Program-made: the position numbers and the translations under genes | Origin: Cryphonectria parasitica EP155 | Lineage: Eukaryota > Ascomycota > Sordariomycetes > Diaporthales > Cryphonectriaceae | Assembly: GCF_011745365.1 (NCBI RefSeq) | Contig: NW_024468911.1 | Location: forward strand, 1-64,000 | Direction: 5' to 3' | DNA: 64,000 bases | Notes under the pieces: generated by a model | Databases searched by the model: none | What the model saw: the letters and a program-made list of their open reading frames with translations, nothing else | What the model was told of the DNA's origin: nothing | In this document: positions 43,801-53,910 of the stretch, piece after piece | Numbering within the stretch: position 1 is the stretch's first letter | How the letters are laid out: each line of letters starts with the position of its first letter

Positions 43801-44602
43801 AGAACTAATACTTGCAAATATATTACGAGAATACTACAAGTTTAAGAAATTATTTCAGAAAGAATTGAATACAGAATTACCGGAATACAGCTTATACAAC
43901 TACAAGATTCTACTACAAGAAGGAAAACAGCCCAAGTTCTTTCCTATCTACAGACTAGATAAGATATAGCTAGAAGCACTTCGGAAGTATCTTAACAAGA
44001 ATCTTAAGAAAGAATATATATAACTATTGCAATTATCAGCAGAATATCCCATTCTGTTTGTATCTAAGAAAAATAGCAAGCTTAAGCTATATATTAATTA
44101 TAAATAATTCAACAATATTACAATCAAGAACTAATATTCATTACTATTCATCAAAGAATTATAAGATAGATTGCAAGAAGCATAATGGTTTATAGCTCTA
44201 AATCTGAAAGAAGCTTATAATCTGATTAGAGTAAAGAAAGAAAAAGAATAGAAAACTGCTTTCAGAATATACTATGAATACTATAAATATTTAGTTATGC
44301 TTTTTGATTTAACGAATGCTTCAGCTTCATTCCAGAAAATGATTAATTATGTTCTATACAAGCATTTAGATCAGTTTATCATTGCTTATCTCAACAATAT
44401 TCTTATTTACTCTTGAATATTGAAAGAATATAAGAAATATATGAAAACAGTATTGCAAATGCTTCAGAATGCAAAGCTTCTTGTAGAACTTGCAAAGAGC
44501 TACTTTTACGTACAAAAAGTCAACTATCTCAGATTTACAATTAAGCTAGAATGCATTAAACTACAGAAAAACAAGGTAAAAGCTGTTAGAAATTAGCTAG
44601 TT
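40806..44602 (+). pseudogene. Gypsy unit 2: gag, protease, part of RT
   Basis: Gag at about 40890-41880 with a CCHC knuckle ('CYNCNKQEYIACNC' when stops are passed, about 41800-41840), then the protease region and RT through the 'YLNNILIYS' box (expected YLDD, near 44385). It is cut at 44602 in the RT/RNase H region by LTR 3. This unit is the best match to the fragments in copies A and B. Confidence 0.8.
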
Positions 44603-45082
44603 TGTTATAACCCATTCAACATGCAGGTTACGAAAACAGGTCACAGGCAAACAGGGACTAGGTATTATAACTCAACATCAGACAACTCACAAGGATTACA
44701 TAACCCAGGGTTAGGGTTATAAGCTAACTAATCAGACAATAGAGCGATTACTAGTAATCACCAGCGCTCAGTAATCAGTAGTGATCCGGAATAATCAGTG
44801 ATGATCTAGAATGATTACCAGCAAGTAAGAAACTGAAGAATCAAGTATATAAAGGTTCACATTTCTTACTGCTAAATAGATTTCCTTCAGATAGTTCTTC
44901 AATTATTAATCTAAGTATTCAGTTTCATATACTAAATAGCTTCAAAAGCAGTGAATACTTGCATTGCTTATCAGAACTTGTATAGTTCCATATTCAAGAA
45001 CTTAATACTTTAATACTGCTCTTGTTAGCATAAACCCCTTTGTATACTTAGAAATCTTCGGATTGCTGCAGTGCTCATTACA
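44603..45082 (+). repeat. Gypsy LTR 3 (5' LTR of unit 3)
   Basis: 480 bp. It contains TAACCCAGGGTTAGGGTTAT at 44701-44720, with an intact TTAGGGTTA. Confidence 0.9.
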
Positions 45083-45159
45083 TTTTAACAATTCTTATTT
45101 AAGAACAGTTTAGTATTACCTCTTTGAGCAATACGGAATACGATAGCTTCTCCAGAAAT

Positions 45160-48100
45160 CTCTTTATTCTCATACGCCCCTATTCAGGAAGAACTAATTA
45201 ATCAGATATACCAGCTCATCCAGCATATTCAGAACTTGTGCGAACAACAGCAGGCTCAGAGCGCCACTATTGCTAATCAGCAGGCTTAGCTAGCCTAACA
45301 AGCTCAGCAGGTGCAGTCCACCTCAGCAGTTATCAGTAGTACTAGGAAAGCATACAAGATAAACAAGCTCGCTATATATAATAGCAATCAGAAAATGCTA
45401 CATGAATTCCTTATCTACTGCAGAGCGTATTTCTTGCACTATATAATCCAGTTTACTATAGAATCTGAAAAGATTATTCTTGCAGAAACTCATTTCAAAA
45501 AGAATACTCTCATCTAGTACAAGCTATCTCTATATAATCACTTGAAGTATCAGAATAACTCTAGTATATATACTTAGAATATTAAGAATATATTTAACTC
45601 TTTTGAAAGCTTTAAGAAAGCTCTTAAGGAAATCTTTAGTAATCCTAATGAAGAATATACTACAGCTTAGCAGCTTATGAATCTCAAGCAGATCAAATCA
45701 GCTTCTGCTTATATAATTAGATTTAAGCAACTCTCAGCGCAACTCCTGTAAGAAGATAAGAATCTTATAGAATACTATTATAAGGGATTTAAGAATAATA
45801 TTAAAGATGAAATCTCCAAGCAGAATTAGCTGAAGAACTTTGTAATATTCTCTAATCAAGCTATTTATATTAATAATTATCTGTATGAATAACAGATAGA
45901 AAAGTTTAAGAAGGAAGAAAGCTAGATTTGAAGATTTCTAGCTAATATAAGCAAGAAACTTCAGAACAAGAATAGCAGTTGATATAGCAGTATAGCTTAG
46001 AGCAGCACTATATATATTAGTTTTATAAAACTCGATGCTACTAATAAGCAGTATAGTAAGAGGAATAGCATTACTTGCTACAATTACAATAAATAAGAAT
46101 ATATTGCATACAACTGCTATCAATTCTAAAAGAACAAATAGCAATCAGTTTAGAAAGAATGCTAGATAAATATTGCTCAATAATAGAAATCTAATCAACT
46201 GAGTAAAAACATTCTCTTGAAGCAAATATCGAACTCTATTGATTATAGAAGTCTCAGCTGAATATTCTGCTATAATAATAACTGCTTAATACATCTCTCG
46301 AGCAAGGAAGATTTAGAATAGTTTCCTCAGAAGCCTCAGTGCTGCAAACAAATAGCAACAGCAGAATGAGAATGCATGCTTAGCATCTTTATGAATAGCA
46401 ACTCGGACTGCTCTGATATTGTAGAACAGAGCATTCAGATGTTAGAAGAAGGGCTTAGCAACAATACTCTTTAACATTCTTCATCGCTTATGCTAAGCAC
46501 TATGATCAGAAACATGGATAAGAAATGATACCCTCTTAGTTACTAATACAAATACATGAATGATACTGAAAATGCTTCTCAGGCAACGAAAGAATCAAAC
46601 CAGAGTAGACAGCTCAACGATTCACCAGAATCTCCTGCGAACAATGAACCCAAGAAGCTTACAAGAAGGTTTTCCTTTAGCATTGAATAGAATAAGAAAA
46701 TAATATAAATTAAATATCTCATCTATAGAATAGAGCTAGAAGAGCTCTTTATCTACATTCCCTTGCAAGATATCAAAGCATAATAAGATAAGAATTCTCG
46801 GATCAGCTTACTTTATAATCTATACTGCAAACTAGCATAAATCTCCTGCATCTATCATAACTGCAAAATGCATTTTTCGAACAAGATACAATACGAATAA
46901 TTTCCTATCAGAGAACTAGAATAAATTCTTCAAGCTATTGAAGAAAAGAAACTCCGCTTCAGAGAGATTCTCAACAGATAGCATTATAATGCATACATCG
47001 AACTACTAGATAATTGCTTTATGCAATGCATAAATAAGAAAATAAAATGGTAGCAATACAAAACAATACTCTGTATAATTCATATTAGTAATAAGATATA
47101 TAATTAGCATTAATAGAAGAAAGATTAGAAATAATAATGATATAAGCAAAAGCAAGCTAAGAAGCTTGCTTAAAAAGCAGCAAAGCAAGCTTAGAAGAAT
47201 AAGTAGTTCTTAATAATTTCAAAAGAATAGAATTGCTTATAAAGGGATTGCAAATGATTAGACTGAAACAGTTTCTATATAAAGCTTTCAGAATAGATTA
47301 TGCTTATATTAAGTTCAATATATACATTCAAGAATACAAATACAGCATACTATTAAATAGTAGCGCTTAGAAAAACTTTATATTTCTATATATTATTAAT
47401 TAGATATAACTATAATAGAAATAGAAGAAATGCTTATATACTCTCAGTACTATAGAAGAATAATCTATTGCATATAACCAAGAAGTAATCGATAAGAAGA
47501 TTAATTATTTATCTATTTTGATTCAAGAATATATAATCAGAGCTTCCTTTAATATTACAGATATAGTACAGCACGAGCTGATTATAAGATTTCTATAGCT
47601 CAAGAAGCACAATTCTCGAATCGATTGAACTACTAGCTAGATCTTATAAGAACAAGCTATATCCAAGAAGATAGTTGCAATTAACAATGCAGAATCGAAG
47701 CTAGTTATTAAAGAATACTCAGAAAAAGAAGCTTCAGATAACTTCATACATACTTCCAAGTTAGCAGAGCTAGCAGTTTAAGAAGAAGAATCTAGTAACA
47801 AGCGAACCCAAACAGTACTAGAGCGCTAATAGATTAGCAAAATAATGGAAGCAAGATCCTTAGCAAGTTAGTTCGCTCCGGAGCAATAAGGAAAAGCTTC
47901 AGAATGTAAATTGTAAACTTATACAGGAAAAACCTCGAAACTAAGCTCTCAAGCATTCAATTCAGCTTGAAGCAAATGCTTAAAGCTTTCAAAAACATTA
48001 CTAAAAACAACAAATAAAAAAAAGCATACTCAATAATATCTACTATTCCTTCAGATAGCAGAAACAGCACAAGAATCAGAACCAATACTTGCAAACATAC

Positions 48101-50889
48101 TACAAGAATATTATAAGTTCAAGAAACTATTCCAGAAAGAATTGAATACAGAATTGCTAGAATATAGCTCATACAACTACAAAATCCTGCTATAAGAAGG
48201 GAAACAGCTTAAATTCTTCCTCATTTACAGATTAGATCAAGTACAACTAGAAGCACTCAGAAAGTATCTTAATAAGAATCTCAAAAAGAAATATATATAA
48301 TCATTGCAATTATTAGCAGAATACTCTATCCTATTTATACTTAAGAAGAATAGCAAGCTTAAGCTATATATTAATTATAAGCAATTTAATAATATTATAA
48401 TCAAGAACTAATATCTATTACTACTTATCAAAAAACTACGAAATAGATTGCAAGAAGCATAATAGTTTATAGCTCTAGATCTAAAAAAAGCTTATAATCT
48501 AATTAGAATAAAGAAAGAAGAAGAATGAAAAACTGCTTTCAGAATATGCTATGAATACTACGAATATTTGATTATACTCTTCAGTTTAACAAATGCTTTA
48601 GCTTTATTCCAGGAAATAATCAATCACATCCTATACAAGCATCTAAATCAATTCATTATTATCTATTTCAATAATATTCTTATTTACTCTCGAATACTGA
48701 AAGAATACAAGAAATATATGGAAACAGTATTGCAAACGCTTCAGAATGCAAAGCTTCTTATAGAACTTACAAAAAGCTACTTTCACATACAAAAAGTTAA
48801 CTATCTCGGATTCACAATCAAGCTAGAATGTATTAAGCTACAGAAGAATAAGATAGAAGCTATCAGAAACTAGCTAATTCCTAGGAATATCAGAGATATT
48901 AGATCTTTCCTCGAATATATCAACTTCTACAAGCAATTCATTAAAAACTATAGCCGAATTGCACATTCCCTTACAAATCTCATCAAAAAGAAGCAACCCT
49001 TCAAATGAATCTCCAAAGCACAAGAAGCTTTTAATAAGATCATTAAGCATATTACTTCAGAACCAATTCTATATAAAGCAGATCCTTACAAGCCTTTTAA
49101 AATTGAAACCAATGCATCAGAATATGCACTCGGAGAACAACTTGATCAGCAAGATAACTAAGAACATCTAAGAATTATAAGCAACTTCTTGAAGAAGTTG
49201 AACAGCTCAGAAATCAACTACAGAATCTCTAATCAGAAACTCATAGCAATAGTAAAAGCTTTCAAGAAGTAGCAATACTATCTCATTAGCATACAATATT
49301 CAATCATAGTTTACTCGAATTATAAGAATCTAACTATATTTATAACAACTAAGATTTTGAACAAGCAATAAGTTAGATAAGCAGAATTCTTCTTACAGTT
49401 CAACTTCAAGATTGTATACTGCAAAAGCTTGAAGAATGAATAAGCAAATGCTTTCAGCAGAAAATCAAACTATCGAAATGTAGATTTCTCGAATATACAG
49501 AACATCTTCGCTCAAAACGAGTCAGGAAATCTCATTAATATATATAAAGAACTGAATGCTGCTCTCAGAATCGAATTCTTAGAAAGAAATTCAGAATCAA
49601 TAATTCCGAACAAATAAGATAATTATATCAAGAATATATACAGTATATCAGCATATAAGCATTAGAGAGTTAGAGCAATCTATGAATGCATCAAAAGATA
49701 TTAAAACTTATTAAATCTTAAGAAAAGAATTAAGAGCATTCTATAACAATATAATAGCTGCAAGAAGAATAAAGCAGAAAGATATAAGCCTTACAGACTA
49801 TTGCACTCCTTACTAATACTTATAACTATTTAGCAATTCATTAATCTAAACTTCATTACCAAGCTATCTCTCTTATAAGAATCCTTAATTAAGATATAAT
49901 ATAATAGCATCTTAGTAGTAGTTTGCAAACTGAGCAAGTATACTTACTTTCTCTTCTACAAGAAAAGCAGTATAGCAGAAGAACTCGTATATGCATTTCT
50001 CAGAATAATCATCATTAACTATAGCATACTAAAAGAAGTAATTTCTAATAGAAATAGAAAGTTCAACTCGAAATTTTGAACTTCATTTATGAAATAGCTC
50101 GGAATATACTATAGAATATTCATAGCATTTCATCTGCAAACAGATGAATAAATAGAAAGAGTAAATCAAGTTATTAAATAGTATTTATAATACTATATTA
50201 ACTAGAAACAGAACAACTGAATTAATCTATTATCTTTTGCATAGTTTGCTTATAATAGCGCAGATACAAGCATAATAAAGAAGTTACTATTCTTCGCACT
50301 CTATAAATATAATTCAATAGCTTACTACGAAATACTACTAGAAGCAGATGCAAAAGCTGCAAATAAAAGAATTAGAAAGATTAAGAAAGTTTAGAAAAAA
50401 CTTTAGTTAGAATTACAATTTATTCAAGAATGAATAATGCAATATACAAACTCTAAAAGAATTAAGAAACCAATCCTACAAAAGGAAGATAAAGTCTACC
50501 TATTTCGGAAAAATATCAAAATAATCAAGCTCAGCAACAAACTTGATCACAAAAAACTGAAATTCTTCAAAATCTTGCAATAGATTTCTCCAGTTAATTA
50601 CGAGTTAGCATTATCTTATGAAATAAGATTATATCCAGTTTTTCACATCTTACTGCTAGAATTAGCAGTACAGAAAATACTAACGAATAATATAGCAAAA
50701 GTAGAAAATAATGAATCAGAGTATGAGATAGAGAAGATTCTCAAGCACAGAAGCACAGATAATACAAGAGAATATCTTATTAAATGAAAAGATTACTCAG
50801 CAAGCGAAAATTCATAAGAATTACAGAAGAATATTAAAAACGCTCAGAAGAGAGTAACTGAATATTGGAAAAGGAAAGCCAGCACCTAA
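45160..50889 (+). pseudogene. Gypsy unit 3 gag-pol polyprotein
   Basis: Gag (about 45160-46400) has a Gln-rich coiled start, the retrotransposon gag fold ('SASAYIIRFKQLSAQLLQED') and a CCHC knuckle at 46077-46120. RT is best preserved at 48568-48873: 'MIILFSLTNALALFQEIINH', then 'IYFNNILIYSRILKEYKKYM', where expected YLDD reads YFNN. RNase H follows (about 49000-49500). The integrase core is decayed at 49790-50180 (Asp/Glu changed). A chromodomain lies at about 50725-50870 ('YEIEKILKHRSTDNTREYLI'). The pol TAA stop is at 50887-50889. Most stops are TAG/TAA from Gln or TGA from Trp/Arg. Confidence 0.88.
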
Positions 50890-51614
50890 GATAATTGCTC
50901 CACTCCGAACTGAGATCCAGGGGCTTCAAAGACCTCGCCCTCCAGGAAACCCGACCAATCCACCACTGCATTCCCCACATCTACAGAATTCCAGTCGAAA
51001 CCTCCAGAAGAGGAACTCCCAGGAACAACCACGAGCTCTGCAGAAACCACAGCCTGCATCTCAGCCGCCATGCGCTCGCACTCCTCCTCCTCCAAGCTCT
51101 TATTCACCAGTTTTATCCCCTTCTCCTGAAGAAAGCATTGCTGCTTCTTCAAACGAGATAGACAACCTAGGAATTCGAACAAACGAGCCTGAGCATCCGC
51201 TAGCTCTTGCTAACGCTCCAACAAATACTCCTCCTCCTCTATCTTCCTACTATCCAAACGAACCAATTCATCAGTAATACAAGATACTAAAGCAGTATTA
51301 TTAGCAAGAACTAAGAAAGAGGAAAGAGAAGGCTTACGAGAAGACATAAGAATTCAACCAGCATCACAGGAACAACCTCGTTTCATACACTGAGAACAGC
51401 TCTTGATCCCATTCACCATCTTACATCGCACTCCCTTTTCCAGATATAATAAGCACAGCATAACTTCGTAGCTAGTAGACTCAATATACGAATAACGCTT
51501 GAGATAATGAAGATATAGCTTCAAGAAGGTAATGGAAGCACCAGAAGAAGATTTGCTAACACAGGAATTTAAGATTCTGTTCAACATCTCGATTAGAAAG
51601 GCATAACCACGCAT
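50886..51614 (-). pseudogene. Antisense accessory ORF of the Gypsy element (Cys-rich)
   Basis: Minus-strand frame of 243 codons from ATG 51614 to TAG at 50888-50886, interrupted by only two stops, far better kept than pol. The N-terminal half ends in a Cys cluster C-x7-C-x2-C-x4-C-x-C ('CKMVNGIKSCSQCMKRGCSC', about 51420-51361), a likely zinc-binding module. The C-terminal half holds a coiled coil ('LVRLDSRKIEEEEYLLERQ', then 'NKSLEEEECERMAAEMQAVV') and a Gly/Asp-rich tail. Its stop codon overlaps the pol stop on the other strand (shared CTAA). Codon content is GC-richer than the surroundings. Role unknown; it sits like the antisense ORF of the Copia element. Confidence 0.75.
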
Positions 51615-51678
51615 ACGAAGAACTTGCTGAATACTTACAGGGAATTGTTGAGAACAACAACTGATAGGAGGAAGATGA

Positions 51679-52158
51679 TGTTATAACTCATTCAACATAC
51701 AGATCACGAAAACAGATTACAGGCAAACAGAGACCAGATATCATAACTCAACATCAGACAACCCACAAGGATTACATAATCCAGGGTTAGGATTACAGGC
51801 CAACTAATCAGACAATAGAGCGATCACTAGTAATCACCAGCGCTCAGTGATCAGTAATGATCCGGAATGATCAGTGGTGATCTAGGATGATCACCAGCAA
51901 GCAAGGAACTGAAGAACCAGGTATATGAAGGTTCACATTTCTTACTGCTAGATAGATTTCCTTCAGATAGTTCTTCAGTTGTCAATCTAAGTATTCAGTC
52001 TCATACACTGAGTAGCCCCAAAGGCAGTGAACACTTGCATCGCTCATCAGAACTTGTACGGTTCCGTATTCAAGGACTTGACACTTTGACACCGCTCTTG
52101 TTAGCATAAACCCCTTCGTGTACTTAGGAATCTTCGGATTGCTGCAGTGCTCATTACA
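51679..52158 (+). repeat. Gypsy LTR 4 (3' LTR of unit 3)
   Basis: 480 bp, preceded by GGAGGAAGATGA (51667-51678), a polypurine-tract candidate. It is nearly identical to LTR 3 and slightly GC-richer. The telomere-like motif here reads CCAGGGTTAGGATT. Confidence 0.9.
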
Positions 52159-52199
52159 TTATAGCAGAACAGAATCATTATCTGCTATATTGCTCTATA

Positions 52200-52800
52200 G
52201 ATTCTAATTAATAAAACTAATAAATATTAATATGCAGCGCTCAAGCTATATTTCCAAGATCTTAGAGCAGCTTAAAAATCTTGCTAAGGCTTGTAAGAAA
52301 GCTCAGGAAAGCTTTAATTATGCAAGATAAATATATATCAAGTAGTATAATAAATGCTATACTAATAAAAGATTCTTTCTTAGCAATTATATTCTTATTT
52401 TAACTAAGCATTTATACTAAAAAAGCATTAATAATAAACTAGCAAATAAATATCTTAGCTCTTTTCAAGTATTAAAGATTGTAAAAATGTATAGATTAGC
52501 ATATAAGCTTGAATTGCTAGCGAAATATAAGATTTATAATATCTTTTCAATTATAGCTCTGAAGAACTTTAATAAATAAGATGGAGAAGAGCTTGAGGCG
52601 CATTCTGATATCAATCTCGAGAAAGAAGCATATTGGAAGATAGAAGCTATTCTAGCATACTAAAAGCTATCTAGGAACTGCTAATTCCTCATATATTAAA
52701 AGAAATATAGCAGTAATAAGAATTTATAGGAATTATAAGTATTTATTAATAATGAACTATTAATCAAAGAATATAAAGCATGATTAAAGCAGTAATAATA
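52200..52800 (+). pseudogene. Integrase C-terminus and chromodomain of a second Gypsy family
   Basis: Frame with 'MQRSSYISKILEQLKNLAKA', 'KINNKLANKYLSSFQVLKIV'-like integrase C-terminal sequence, then a chromodomain-like block ('EAYWKIEAILAYQK', later 'LQVFINNELLIKEYKA'). It differs from the chromodomain at 50725-50870. No LTR of its own seen. Heavily AT-mutated. Confidence 0.65.
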
Positions 52801-52929
52801 CAGCACAGAAGCTACTTAGTCTTTGATTGAAAAACTAAAAACTCTTATATAGCTTATTTATCTAAAGAGTTAGCAATGCCCCTACATTATAGCAATCAGT
52901 GCTAGTTATTTCTCATGCTATAAAAGCAT

Positions 52930-53400
52930 ATTTACTCACTCAGAGTTTTTAAAGAAGTTACTCTTCCTCTTCAAGAGCTGCTTCAGAAAGCTTGCAAGCT
53001 GCTTCAGCTAGCATCTCCAGAGCGCTAATACTGCATTAAAGCAGCAATATCAACTTCCTGCTTATAATAGAAGCAGAAGATGCGCTGATTACTAGTACAG
53101 AAGCAGCGCTTACAGAGCATACTAGCTGAAGAACATTCTGTAAATTCTTATTAATTAGCTTCTAATTAAAGAAGCAAGCATTGTTCAGAGCTAAATCCGC
53201 TTTATAAGAAAGCTATAATAGCTTATAAGCAGTGCAAAAGATAAGAAAGAGCAGAAGTAATACTACTTACAAGCTAGCAGAAGTGATTGCTGCAAGCATA
53301 CTGAAAACAATAAGCATTAAAGCTTATAATAAATCAATATAAGAATTTGTAAAGCAAGGAAACTAATATATCTAATTAATTCTAATATTAAATTTTAAGC
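52930..53400 (+). pseudogene. Unassigned coding relic
   Basis: One plus frame stays coherent if TAA/TAG are taken as former Gln codons and TGA as Trp: helical and Cys-containing, with 'ELNPLYKKAIIAYKQCKR' near 53190. No family recognised. It may be part of the same retroelement scrap or of another repeat. Confidence 0.35.
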
Positions 53401-53519
53401 TTCTGAATGCAGCGATGCATACATTTCTAGCACCAGCTAACAGAAAGATATACTGCATCCGATCTCTCGGAAACCTTCTTCCTCTTAATAGCTTAGCAAT
53501 ATTAGCGCAGCGCTGTATA

Positions 53520-53910
53520 TACGATATATATGAGTATTCACAGAGGCTGTAGAAGTGATAGAAGGCGGAGCCTTCGGAGCAGGAGTCTTGGAAGACTTAA
53601 GGGGGGGCGAGAGAAAGGGCGAGAGCGAGGGAGAAGCTTTCTTGCGCTTCTTGCTGGCGGGGGCCTTGCAGCTATCATGCTAACTGCTGCAGCAGCTACG
53701 AGAGGAAGAGGATGCAGAAGCAGCGGGAGCGCCTGAGAGCAGAGAGTAGCGAGGAGGGAGCACTGCATTAACAGCGCTGAAGAAAGCATTGCTAGCTTCC
53801 AAAGCCTCAGAGACAGTCTAACTCTTAGAGATCTCAGAGGCTAGCGCAGCCTTCCCAGATACGTTAATAGTAATAAAAGAAAATATCTGCAATAAATTAG
53901 CTTTTATACA
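53520..53910 (-). pseudogene. GC-rich Lys/Pro/Ser-rich coding relic
   Basis: A small island much richer in G and C than its surroundings. The minus frame reads an Ala/Ser-rich stretch then 'KAPASKKRKKASPSLSPFLS' and 'LKSSKTPAPKAPPSITSTAS' (about 53660-53530). The basic-proline composition suggests a disordered nucleic-acid-binding tail, as in gag-like or accessory retroelement proteins. Other frames in the island are Arg- or Leu-rich and look like shadows. Confidence 0.4.

Follow-up and report, generated by a model that had tools for sequence, protein, structure and literature searches.

What is encoded on the minus strand between the pol frame and the 3′ long terminal repeat (LTR) of a fungal Gypsy retrotransposon, and does it belong to the element at all? 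The question is raised by a Gypsy element at 44603-52160 of the first 64,000 nucleotides (nt) of contig NW_024468911.1 of the Sordariomycete Cryphonectria parasitica EP155, a stretch that we refer to as the window. The element is AT-rich, full of stops and mutated by repeat-induced point mutation (RIP), and a minus-strand frame of 243 codons including stops (51614-50886) lies between its pol and its 3′ LTR. A first-pass annotation had taken this antisense open reading frame (aORF) for a single frame encoding a nucleic-acid-binding or regulatory protein of the element. Sequence comparison identifies the aORF as what RIP has left of a gene with two exons that encodes a protein and lies antisense between pol and the 3′ LTR in a group of fungal Gypsy elements, and we assign a probability of about 0.6 to the reading that such genes encode a DNA-binding regulator of the element's own LTR.

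Structure of the antisense gene

The coordinates and codon count given in the first-pass annotation hold when stops are counted, but the frame is not a single open reading frame (ORF): two internal stops break it, the ORFs actually listed measure 86 and 98 amino acids (aa), and it corresponds to a two-exon gene with two disabling stops. Exon 1 (51338-51587, minus strand) encodes the N-terminus with a six-cysteine cluster and exon 2 (50886-51286, minus strand) a long helix and an acidic tail, ending in TAG; each carries one of the premature stops. The start, placed by homology, is probably the tenth codon, at 51587, where the relatives begin with MSNRV or MSGRV. The cysteine cluster that had been noticed at first reading is found at 51455-51366, is Zn2Cys6-like and still has cysteine at five of the six family positions, and a conserved acidic and aromatic C-terminal motif, FDWNSVDVGNAVVDWSGFL, is encoded at 50943-50999 on the same strand. 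A Pfam scan of the proteins of the window copy gave no match for the aORF.

Further copies were collected from the host genome (43.8 Mb in 17 contigs), the one genome from which all results on element context derive. The 86-aa N-terminal piece of the aORF has 56 matches there, itself included, and the relatives P0008 and P0005 matched at least 150 and at least 172 stretches, respectively, where one gene can give two stretches and where, for P0008, the best 150 of 383 matches were used. Three groups of copies, not selected at random, were compared: W, the best 30 of the 56 matches; Q, 20 rows with at most one stop out of 150 that were scored; and V, 16 loci from the at least 172 matched stretches, one of which (L084) is present only with its second half among the listed rows. 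Some copies retain long open aORF frames (L035, L043).

The tail-to-tail packing with pol that had been described earlier is borne out, as the tetranucleotide CTAA at 50886-50889 is common to both stop codons (antisense TAG at 50888-50886, pol TAA at 50887-50889). The same overlap recurs in 44 of the 66 copies, the window copy included (23/30 in W, 11/20 in Q and 10/16 in V), while the pol stop lies 17-20 nt earlier in 15 copies and 7 could not be scored.

Selection on the antisense frame

The first-pass annotation had proposed testing the minus frame for selection across genomic copies. Since RIP makes transitions only, alignment columns that mix purines and pyrimidines (R/Y-variable columns, with each class in at least two copies) were counted as RIP-immune, and their distribution over the codon positions was assessed with Fisher tests, which treat columns as independent. 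All three groups show an excess at the third position. For W, the columns at positions 1/2/3 number 8/10/21 in exon 1 (p = 0.003) and 10/8/23 in exon 2 (p = 0.0014); the corresponding figures are 53/34/78 of 168 each for Q (p = 3.7e-6) and 2/3/16 of 217 each for V (p = 5.5e-5). The flanks, used as a control in two groups, are flat (38/36/29 of 129 each in Q and 4/6/4 of 38-40 each in W), and the pol tail of Q, a positive control, makes its own frame visible (10/13 in one phase). Insertions and deletions in Q relative to L049, counted per copy, are multiples of three in 38 of 41 cases. By this position-3 excess of RIP-immune changes in three groups, the aORF is a frame that was selected as protein.

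The same signature bears on two other explanations. A chance open frame in RIP-mutated, AT-rich DNA would be compatible with the window copy taken alone, with its two stops and no Pfam match, but is refuted by the codon-position signal in W, Q and V, besides which there are the 56 genome matches, the relatives in many fungi and the copies with long open frames; we rejected it on the selection signal, leaving it a probability close to nil. The antisense RNA could instead be the functional product, acting in silencing or copy-number control, with the frame being incidental. Spliced antisense transcripts of transposable elements (TEs) of Blumeria, several of them Ty3, were indeed judged noncoding (PMC10648671), and control by double-stranded RNA has been raised for plant aORFs (PMC7264820). 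However, the position-3 excess, the mostly frame-preserving indels and a six-cysteine protein conserved across genera need translation, and we consider an RNA product with an incidental frame improbable, although the RNA may have an additional role beside the protein.

Intron and leader

The segment 51337-51287 of the window frame is absent from the relatives and is predicted to be a 51-nt phase-1 intron on the minus strand (GTAAGC...GCTAAT...TTTAG), whose removal yields a junction that agrees, as judged by eye, with that of the Cytospora protein P0001. Across the 30 W copies the intron measures 50-71 nt and comes in several sequence types (by eye) between exon edges that are alike; 20 copies have GT, 27 have AG, 20 have both and 29 have a CTRA branch-like motif, and in 10 the length is not a multiple of three. 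All ten non-GT donors start with AT, a change that RIP can make. Position and phase are the same in V, where 13 of 16 copies have GT and AG, and the Q-type frame reads through the site without an intron (L043). On the strength of these signals, the aORF is apparently spliced at a 51-nt GT-AG intron. The sense genomic RNA does not lose by splicing a spliceosomal intron that lies antisense to it, so that such an intron survives retrotransposition; in this way the orientation would let the aORF retain its intron within the element.

The aORF leader (51588-51678, minus strand) carries a conserved GTAAGT...CTAAT, a possible leader intron, and a GTAAGT-like donor, a CTAAT-like branch and an AG are found around the MSNRV start in 62 of the 66 copies (28/30, 20/20 and 14/16 in W, Q and V). 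The possible acceptor lies just before or after the first ATG, and its use could yield a shorter protein starting with MPCSFC.

Relatives and linkage to the element

Protein searches returned at least 11, at least 62 and at least 79 relatives at E-values up to 1e-3, which places the family in many Sordariomycetes. The named ones come from Cytospora, Verticillium, Colletotrichum, Monosporascus, Apiospora, Pyricularia, Gaeumannomyces, Cordyceps, Hirsutella, Chaetomium, Canariomyces and Trichoderma; Verticillium, whose class was looked up, and the other genera named here are Sordariomycetes. One weak Pyrenophora protein is also among the relatives, and a scan of viral_contigs with P0010 gave three pattern-matching stretches and no relative.

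Among the 66 copies (30 W, 20 Q and 16 V), the pol tail lies next to the aORF, in convergent orientation, in 64, and an LTR lies upstream of the aORF start in 64. Of 417 candidate SH3_Tf2-1 rows, 150 are listed, and 95 of these have an aORF row within 2.5 kb, 93 being convergent with the aORF downstream and 2 on the same strand at >2 kb; the other 55 are without an aORF among the matches listed. Seen from the 206 aORF rows, 94 are convergent with a listed SH3, 2 are arranged otherwise and 110 are without an SH3 among the matches listed. The earlier claim that the aORF belongs to the element and is not a captured neighbour is thus supported in all three groups.

Zn2Cys6 genes are abundant in fungi, which would favour a host gene that was captured once and has since been carried along as passive cargo. 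Capture by LTR elements is, in addition, known (PMC7264820). We nonetheless regard passive cargo as very improbable, given at least 150 stretches of one subtype and 56 of another, the constant place and orientation in 64 of 66 copies, the selection on the frame and its spread over many genera. No stand-alone host relative was seen, with the limit that most of the 110 aORF rows without a listed SH3 were not individually checked.

Resemblance to Zn2Cys6 regulators

The consensus spacing of Zn2Cys6 clusters is C-x2-C-x6-C-x5-12-C-x2-C-x6-8-C. A relaxed six-cysteine pattern fits 68 of 113 aORF relatives and the strict one 39, and among the 57 relatives of at least 180 aa the numbers are 52 and 30. 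A profile search of PDB sequences (22 rows) listed LAC9 (E = 0.056), Cep3 (0.2) and PUT3 (1.4 and 2.2), and Foldseek with one model found Zn2Cys6 regulators in nine of ten rows, all weak matches (best E = 0.63); with a second model no Zn2Cys6 chains were listed, and none of the 13 rows of a BFVD search lay below E = 5. The Pfam family Zn_clus (PF00172) was touched, at E up to 1, by 6 of 25 and 9 of 19 members, the best score shown being 18.1 bits (P0030) against a curated cut-off of 21, and among the matches listed by Pfam and NCBIfam scans none of an aORF reached a curated cut-off. The profile search recommended in the first-pass annotation yields weak matches to Zn2Cys6 regulators, and scores against Zn_clus below its cut-off.

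Fold and sequence searches point, weakly, to Zn2Cys6 regulators. The aORF family shares with LAC9, PUT3, Pho7, Leu3 and HAP1 the cysteine spacing and, probably, a small helix after each CxxC and a following helix, but differs from them in scoring below the Pfam cut-off, in a loop that is often not basic and in being encoded by a retrotransposon. The N-terminus is basic, with a median net charge of +4.5 (range 0 to 7) in 36 full-length relatives. The proposal of a nucleic-acid-binding or regulatory protein draws its support from the cysteine spacing and these weak matches.

One gag-pol backbone with different antisense genes

Over 45103-50602, transversions between the window element and L043 stay at 0-1.6% in each 500-nt block, whereas at 51103-51602 only 59 of 500 nt align and the LTRs differ by about 10%. 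The pol of L042 is 2.8-15% away from that of the window over 47103-50602, and its gag region did not align. The aORFs of L042 and L043 are 70% identical, near-identical over the first 107 residues and different thereafter; they look like a mosaic, with a shared Zn-cluster and helix half, differing C-terminal halves and last residues that are alike again.

When single copies of W, Q and V were compared block by block, transversions were at 0-2% on the side of pol and mostly at 10-45% inside the aORF; the step lies in the final 50-200 nt of the latter. Group means follow this pattern, at 0.004 (W-V) and 0.016 (Q-W) for the pol tail and 0.256 and 0.262 for the aORF, the between-group aORF distances being near saturation and alignment-dependent. 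A second variable region lies in the LTR, where a hypervariable U3 block of about 180 nt extends from 60 to 240 nt from the end adjoining the aORF. Its transversions per 60-nt step amount to 0.11-0.40 between groups, 0.09-0.10 within W, 0.04-0.06 within V and 0.10-0.30 within Q, which is itself diverse in this block; the other LTR steps stay at 0.02-0.09 in all comparisons. Over 61 copies, aORF distance correlates with that of the U3 block (Mantel r = 0.45, p = 0.001), as against 0.12 for the rest of the LTR and 0.06 for the pol tail, and within W it tracks both LTR parts (0.57 and 0.51) and not pol (-0.02). Between groups, the aORF and the U3 core thus tend to go together.

Several results weigh against a tight pairing of the two. 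Within Q, aORF distance tracks all regions alike (U3 0.40, rest of the LTR 0.31, pol 0.36), and within V it tracks none (0.04, 0.18 and -0.10); whole LTRs are no further apart between Q and V (0.084) than within Q (0.087). The association is a loose one, to which proximity by itself could contribute.

These correlations also bear on another possible role, in which the protein would bind nucleic acids and assist the replication or integration complex, for instance as an RNA chaperone, a nuclear import factor or a chromatin tether. The basic N-terminus, the cysteine cluster and the long helix would fit this role too, and the profile search also listed Cep3, a kinetochore protein. If the protein assisted gag-pol, however, it would be expected to stay with it, whereas over the 61 copies the aORF follows U3 and not the pol tail; W repeats this contrast within the group, but Q and V do not. 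We consider such a helper unlikely, though still deserving some weight.

Short repeats in both orientations occur on the hypervariable U3 side of the LTR, namely GATCAC in W and V and ATAGTC in L049, L050 and L068. They are candidate binding-site arrays, but only some of the loci contain more of them than dinucleotide shuffles do, and they are not tied strictly to one aORF type, making them a lead and not evidence.

The element in the window and its surroundings

LTR-LTR comparison places the 5′ LTR of the window element at 44603-45085 and the 3′ LTR at 51679-52160, both on the plus strand, the latter with its U3 side adjoining the aORF start; the pair is 88.8% identical over 482 nt and 90% over 300 nt. 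RIP-mutated remains of gag-pol occupy 45103-50889 on the plus strand, with an SH3_Tf2-1 match in the pol tail (50488-50661). The aORF was initially said to be much less damaged than pol, and the counts agree, with 2 premature stops in about 217 aORF codons versus 14 in the last 300 codons of pol. GC content is 0.28 in pol, 0.44 in the aORF, 0.42 in the 3′ LTR and 0.34 in the 5′ LTR. As the 3′ LTR beside the aORF is also GC-richer than the 5′ LTR, preservation of the aORF is partly regional and hence silent on selection after insertion; the lower damage is largely regional and no evidence of function.

The sequence just upstream of the 5′ LTR, at 44000-44600, includes a fragment that matches the reverse transcriptase region of the element itself (48277-48876) at about 85% identity, so that the window copy sits beside or inside another copy. 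The stretch 52170-53900, to the right of the 3′ LTR, resembles a RIP-mutated copy of another Gypsy family, and its minus-strand ORF 53538-53789 resembles, by eye, ORF 7288-7539 of L039. L039, L040 and G000:C7:2678750 have in common a Gypsy pol open frame of 1243 codons, with LTR identities over about 310 nt of 99.7% for L039 and 100% for L040. A tblastn search of L039 showed no relative of the aORF, and the sole match in L040 (66 residues, 8858-8661) lies outside its LTRs; the three are probably young copies of a different family.

Discussion

We favour an element-encoded regulator. The aORF would be transcribed from the U3/leader side, against pol, into a product of about 216 aa with a divergent Zn2Cys6-type cluster, a long helical and probably dimerising region and an acidic tail. 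This protein would enter the nucleus and regulate, as a dimer, the LTR promoter of its own element, as an activator or a repressor. Exchange between elements, for example by template switching in reverse transcription, may have given one gag-pol backbone several aORFs. The order of the genomic RNA is R-U5-gag-pol-aORF-U3-R, so that one template switch in co-packaged RNA could move aORF and U3 together, and a U3 core varying in parallel with the aORF would be expected if protein and promoter were matched.

By analogy with the immunity region of lambdoid phages, aORF and U3 core might even form an exchangeable regulator/operator pair, an extension that we hold to be doubtful. Here, a DNA-binding repressor made by resident copies would silence elements with a matching U3, and escape would come from gaining another aORF and another U3 core while keeping the gag-pol backbone.

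HBZ of human T-cell leukaemia virus type 1 is a spliced gene whose product acts on the LTR. Like the gene proposed here, it lies on the antisense strand of an LTR retroelement and encodes a regulator of DNA-binding type that has a dimerising helix (PMC3112605); it differs in encoding a basic leucine zipper protein and in belonging to an animal retrovirus, and we claim no homology. In fungal Gypsy elements, antisense genes are already known from brtn, the additional antisense gene of Boty-like elements of Botrytis cinerea (Zhao et al., 2011, Virology 417:248; cited in PMC8365987, PMC4227169 and PMC7264820; mentioned also in PMC5987419). It is likewise carried together with gag-pol, there with a chromodomain (PMC4227169), in an LTR element of a filamentous fungus; the likeness drawn here is one of description, and no Botrytis-named protein is among the aORF relatives listed. 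The plant aORF-3R genes (maize Grande gene23, rice RIRE2, Silene Retand ORF4) are also antisense between pol and the 3′ LTR, are retained in all or most copies, have some nuclear products and, in Grande, an antisense promoter of their own, and are described as lacking clear similarity to other proteins (PMC7264820). The fungal family differs by its Zn2Cys6-like cluster, its conserved intron and the different aORFs on a common gag-pol. Antisense long non-coding RNAs of Blumeria hordei TEs are also spliced and derive from fungal retrotransposons, several of them Ty3, but are reported to be without meaningful peptides (PMC10648671), whereas the aORF is protein-coding by its selection signature. 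Searches of the open-licence literature, where absence proves little, yielded no account of an antisense gene with a Zn2Cys6-like cluster and an intron, nor of the exchange of such a gene.

Plant and fungal elements are on record as carrying antisense genes next to the 3′ LTR, without a known function. Here, such a gene can be likened to a protein class, bears the mark of selection as protein, has a conserved intron and differs, together with the U3 core, between elements that share one gag-pol. If the phage-like reading were true, there would be retrotransposon "immunity groups" in fungi. If each protein binds its own U3 only, fungal retrotransposons would come with transcription factors of their own, and some of the proteins annotated as "hypothetical" in Sordariomycetes would, if this is true, be retrotransposon regulators.
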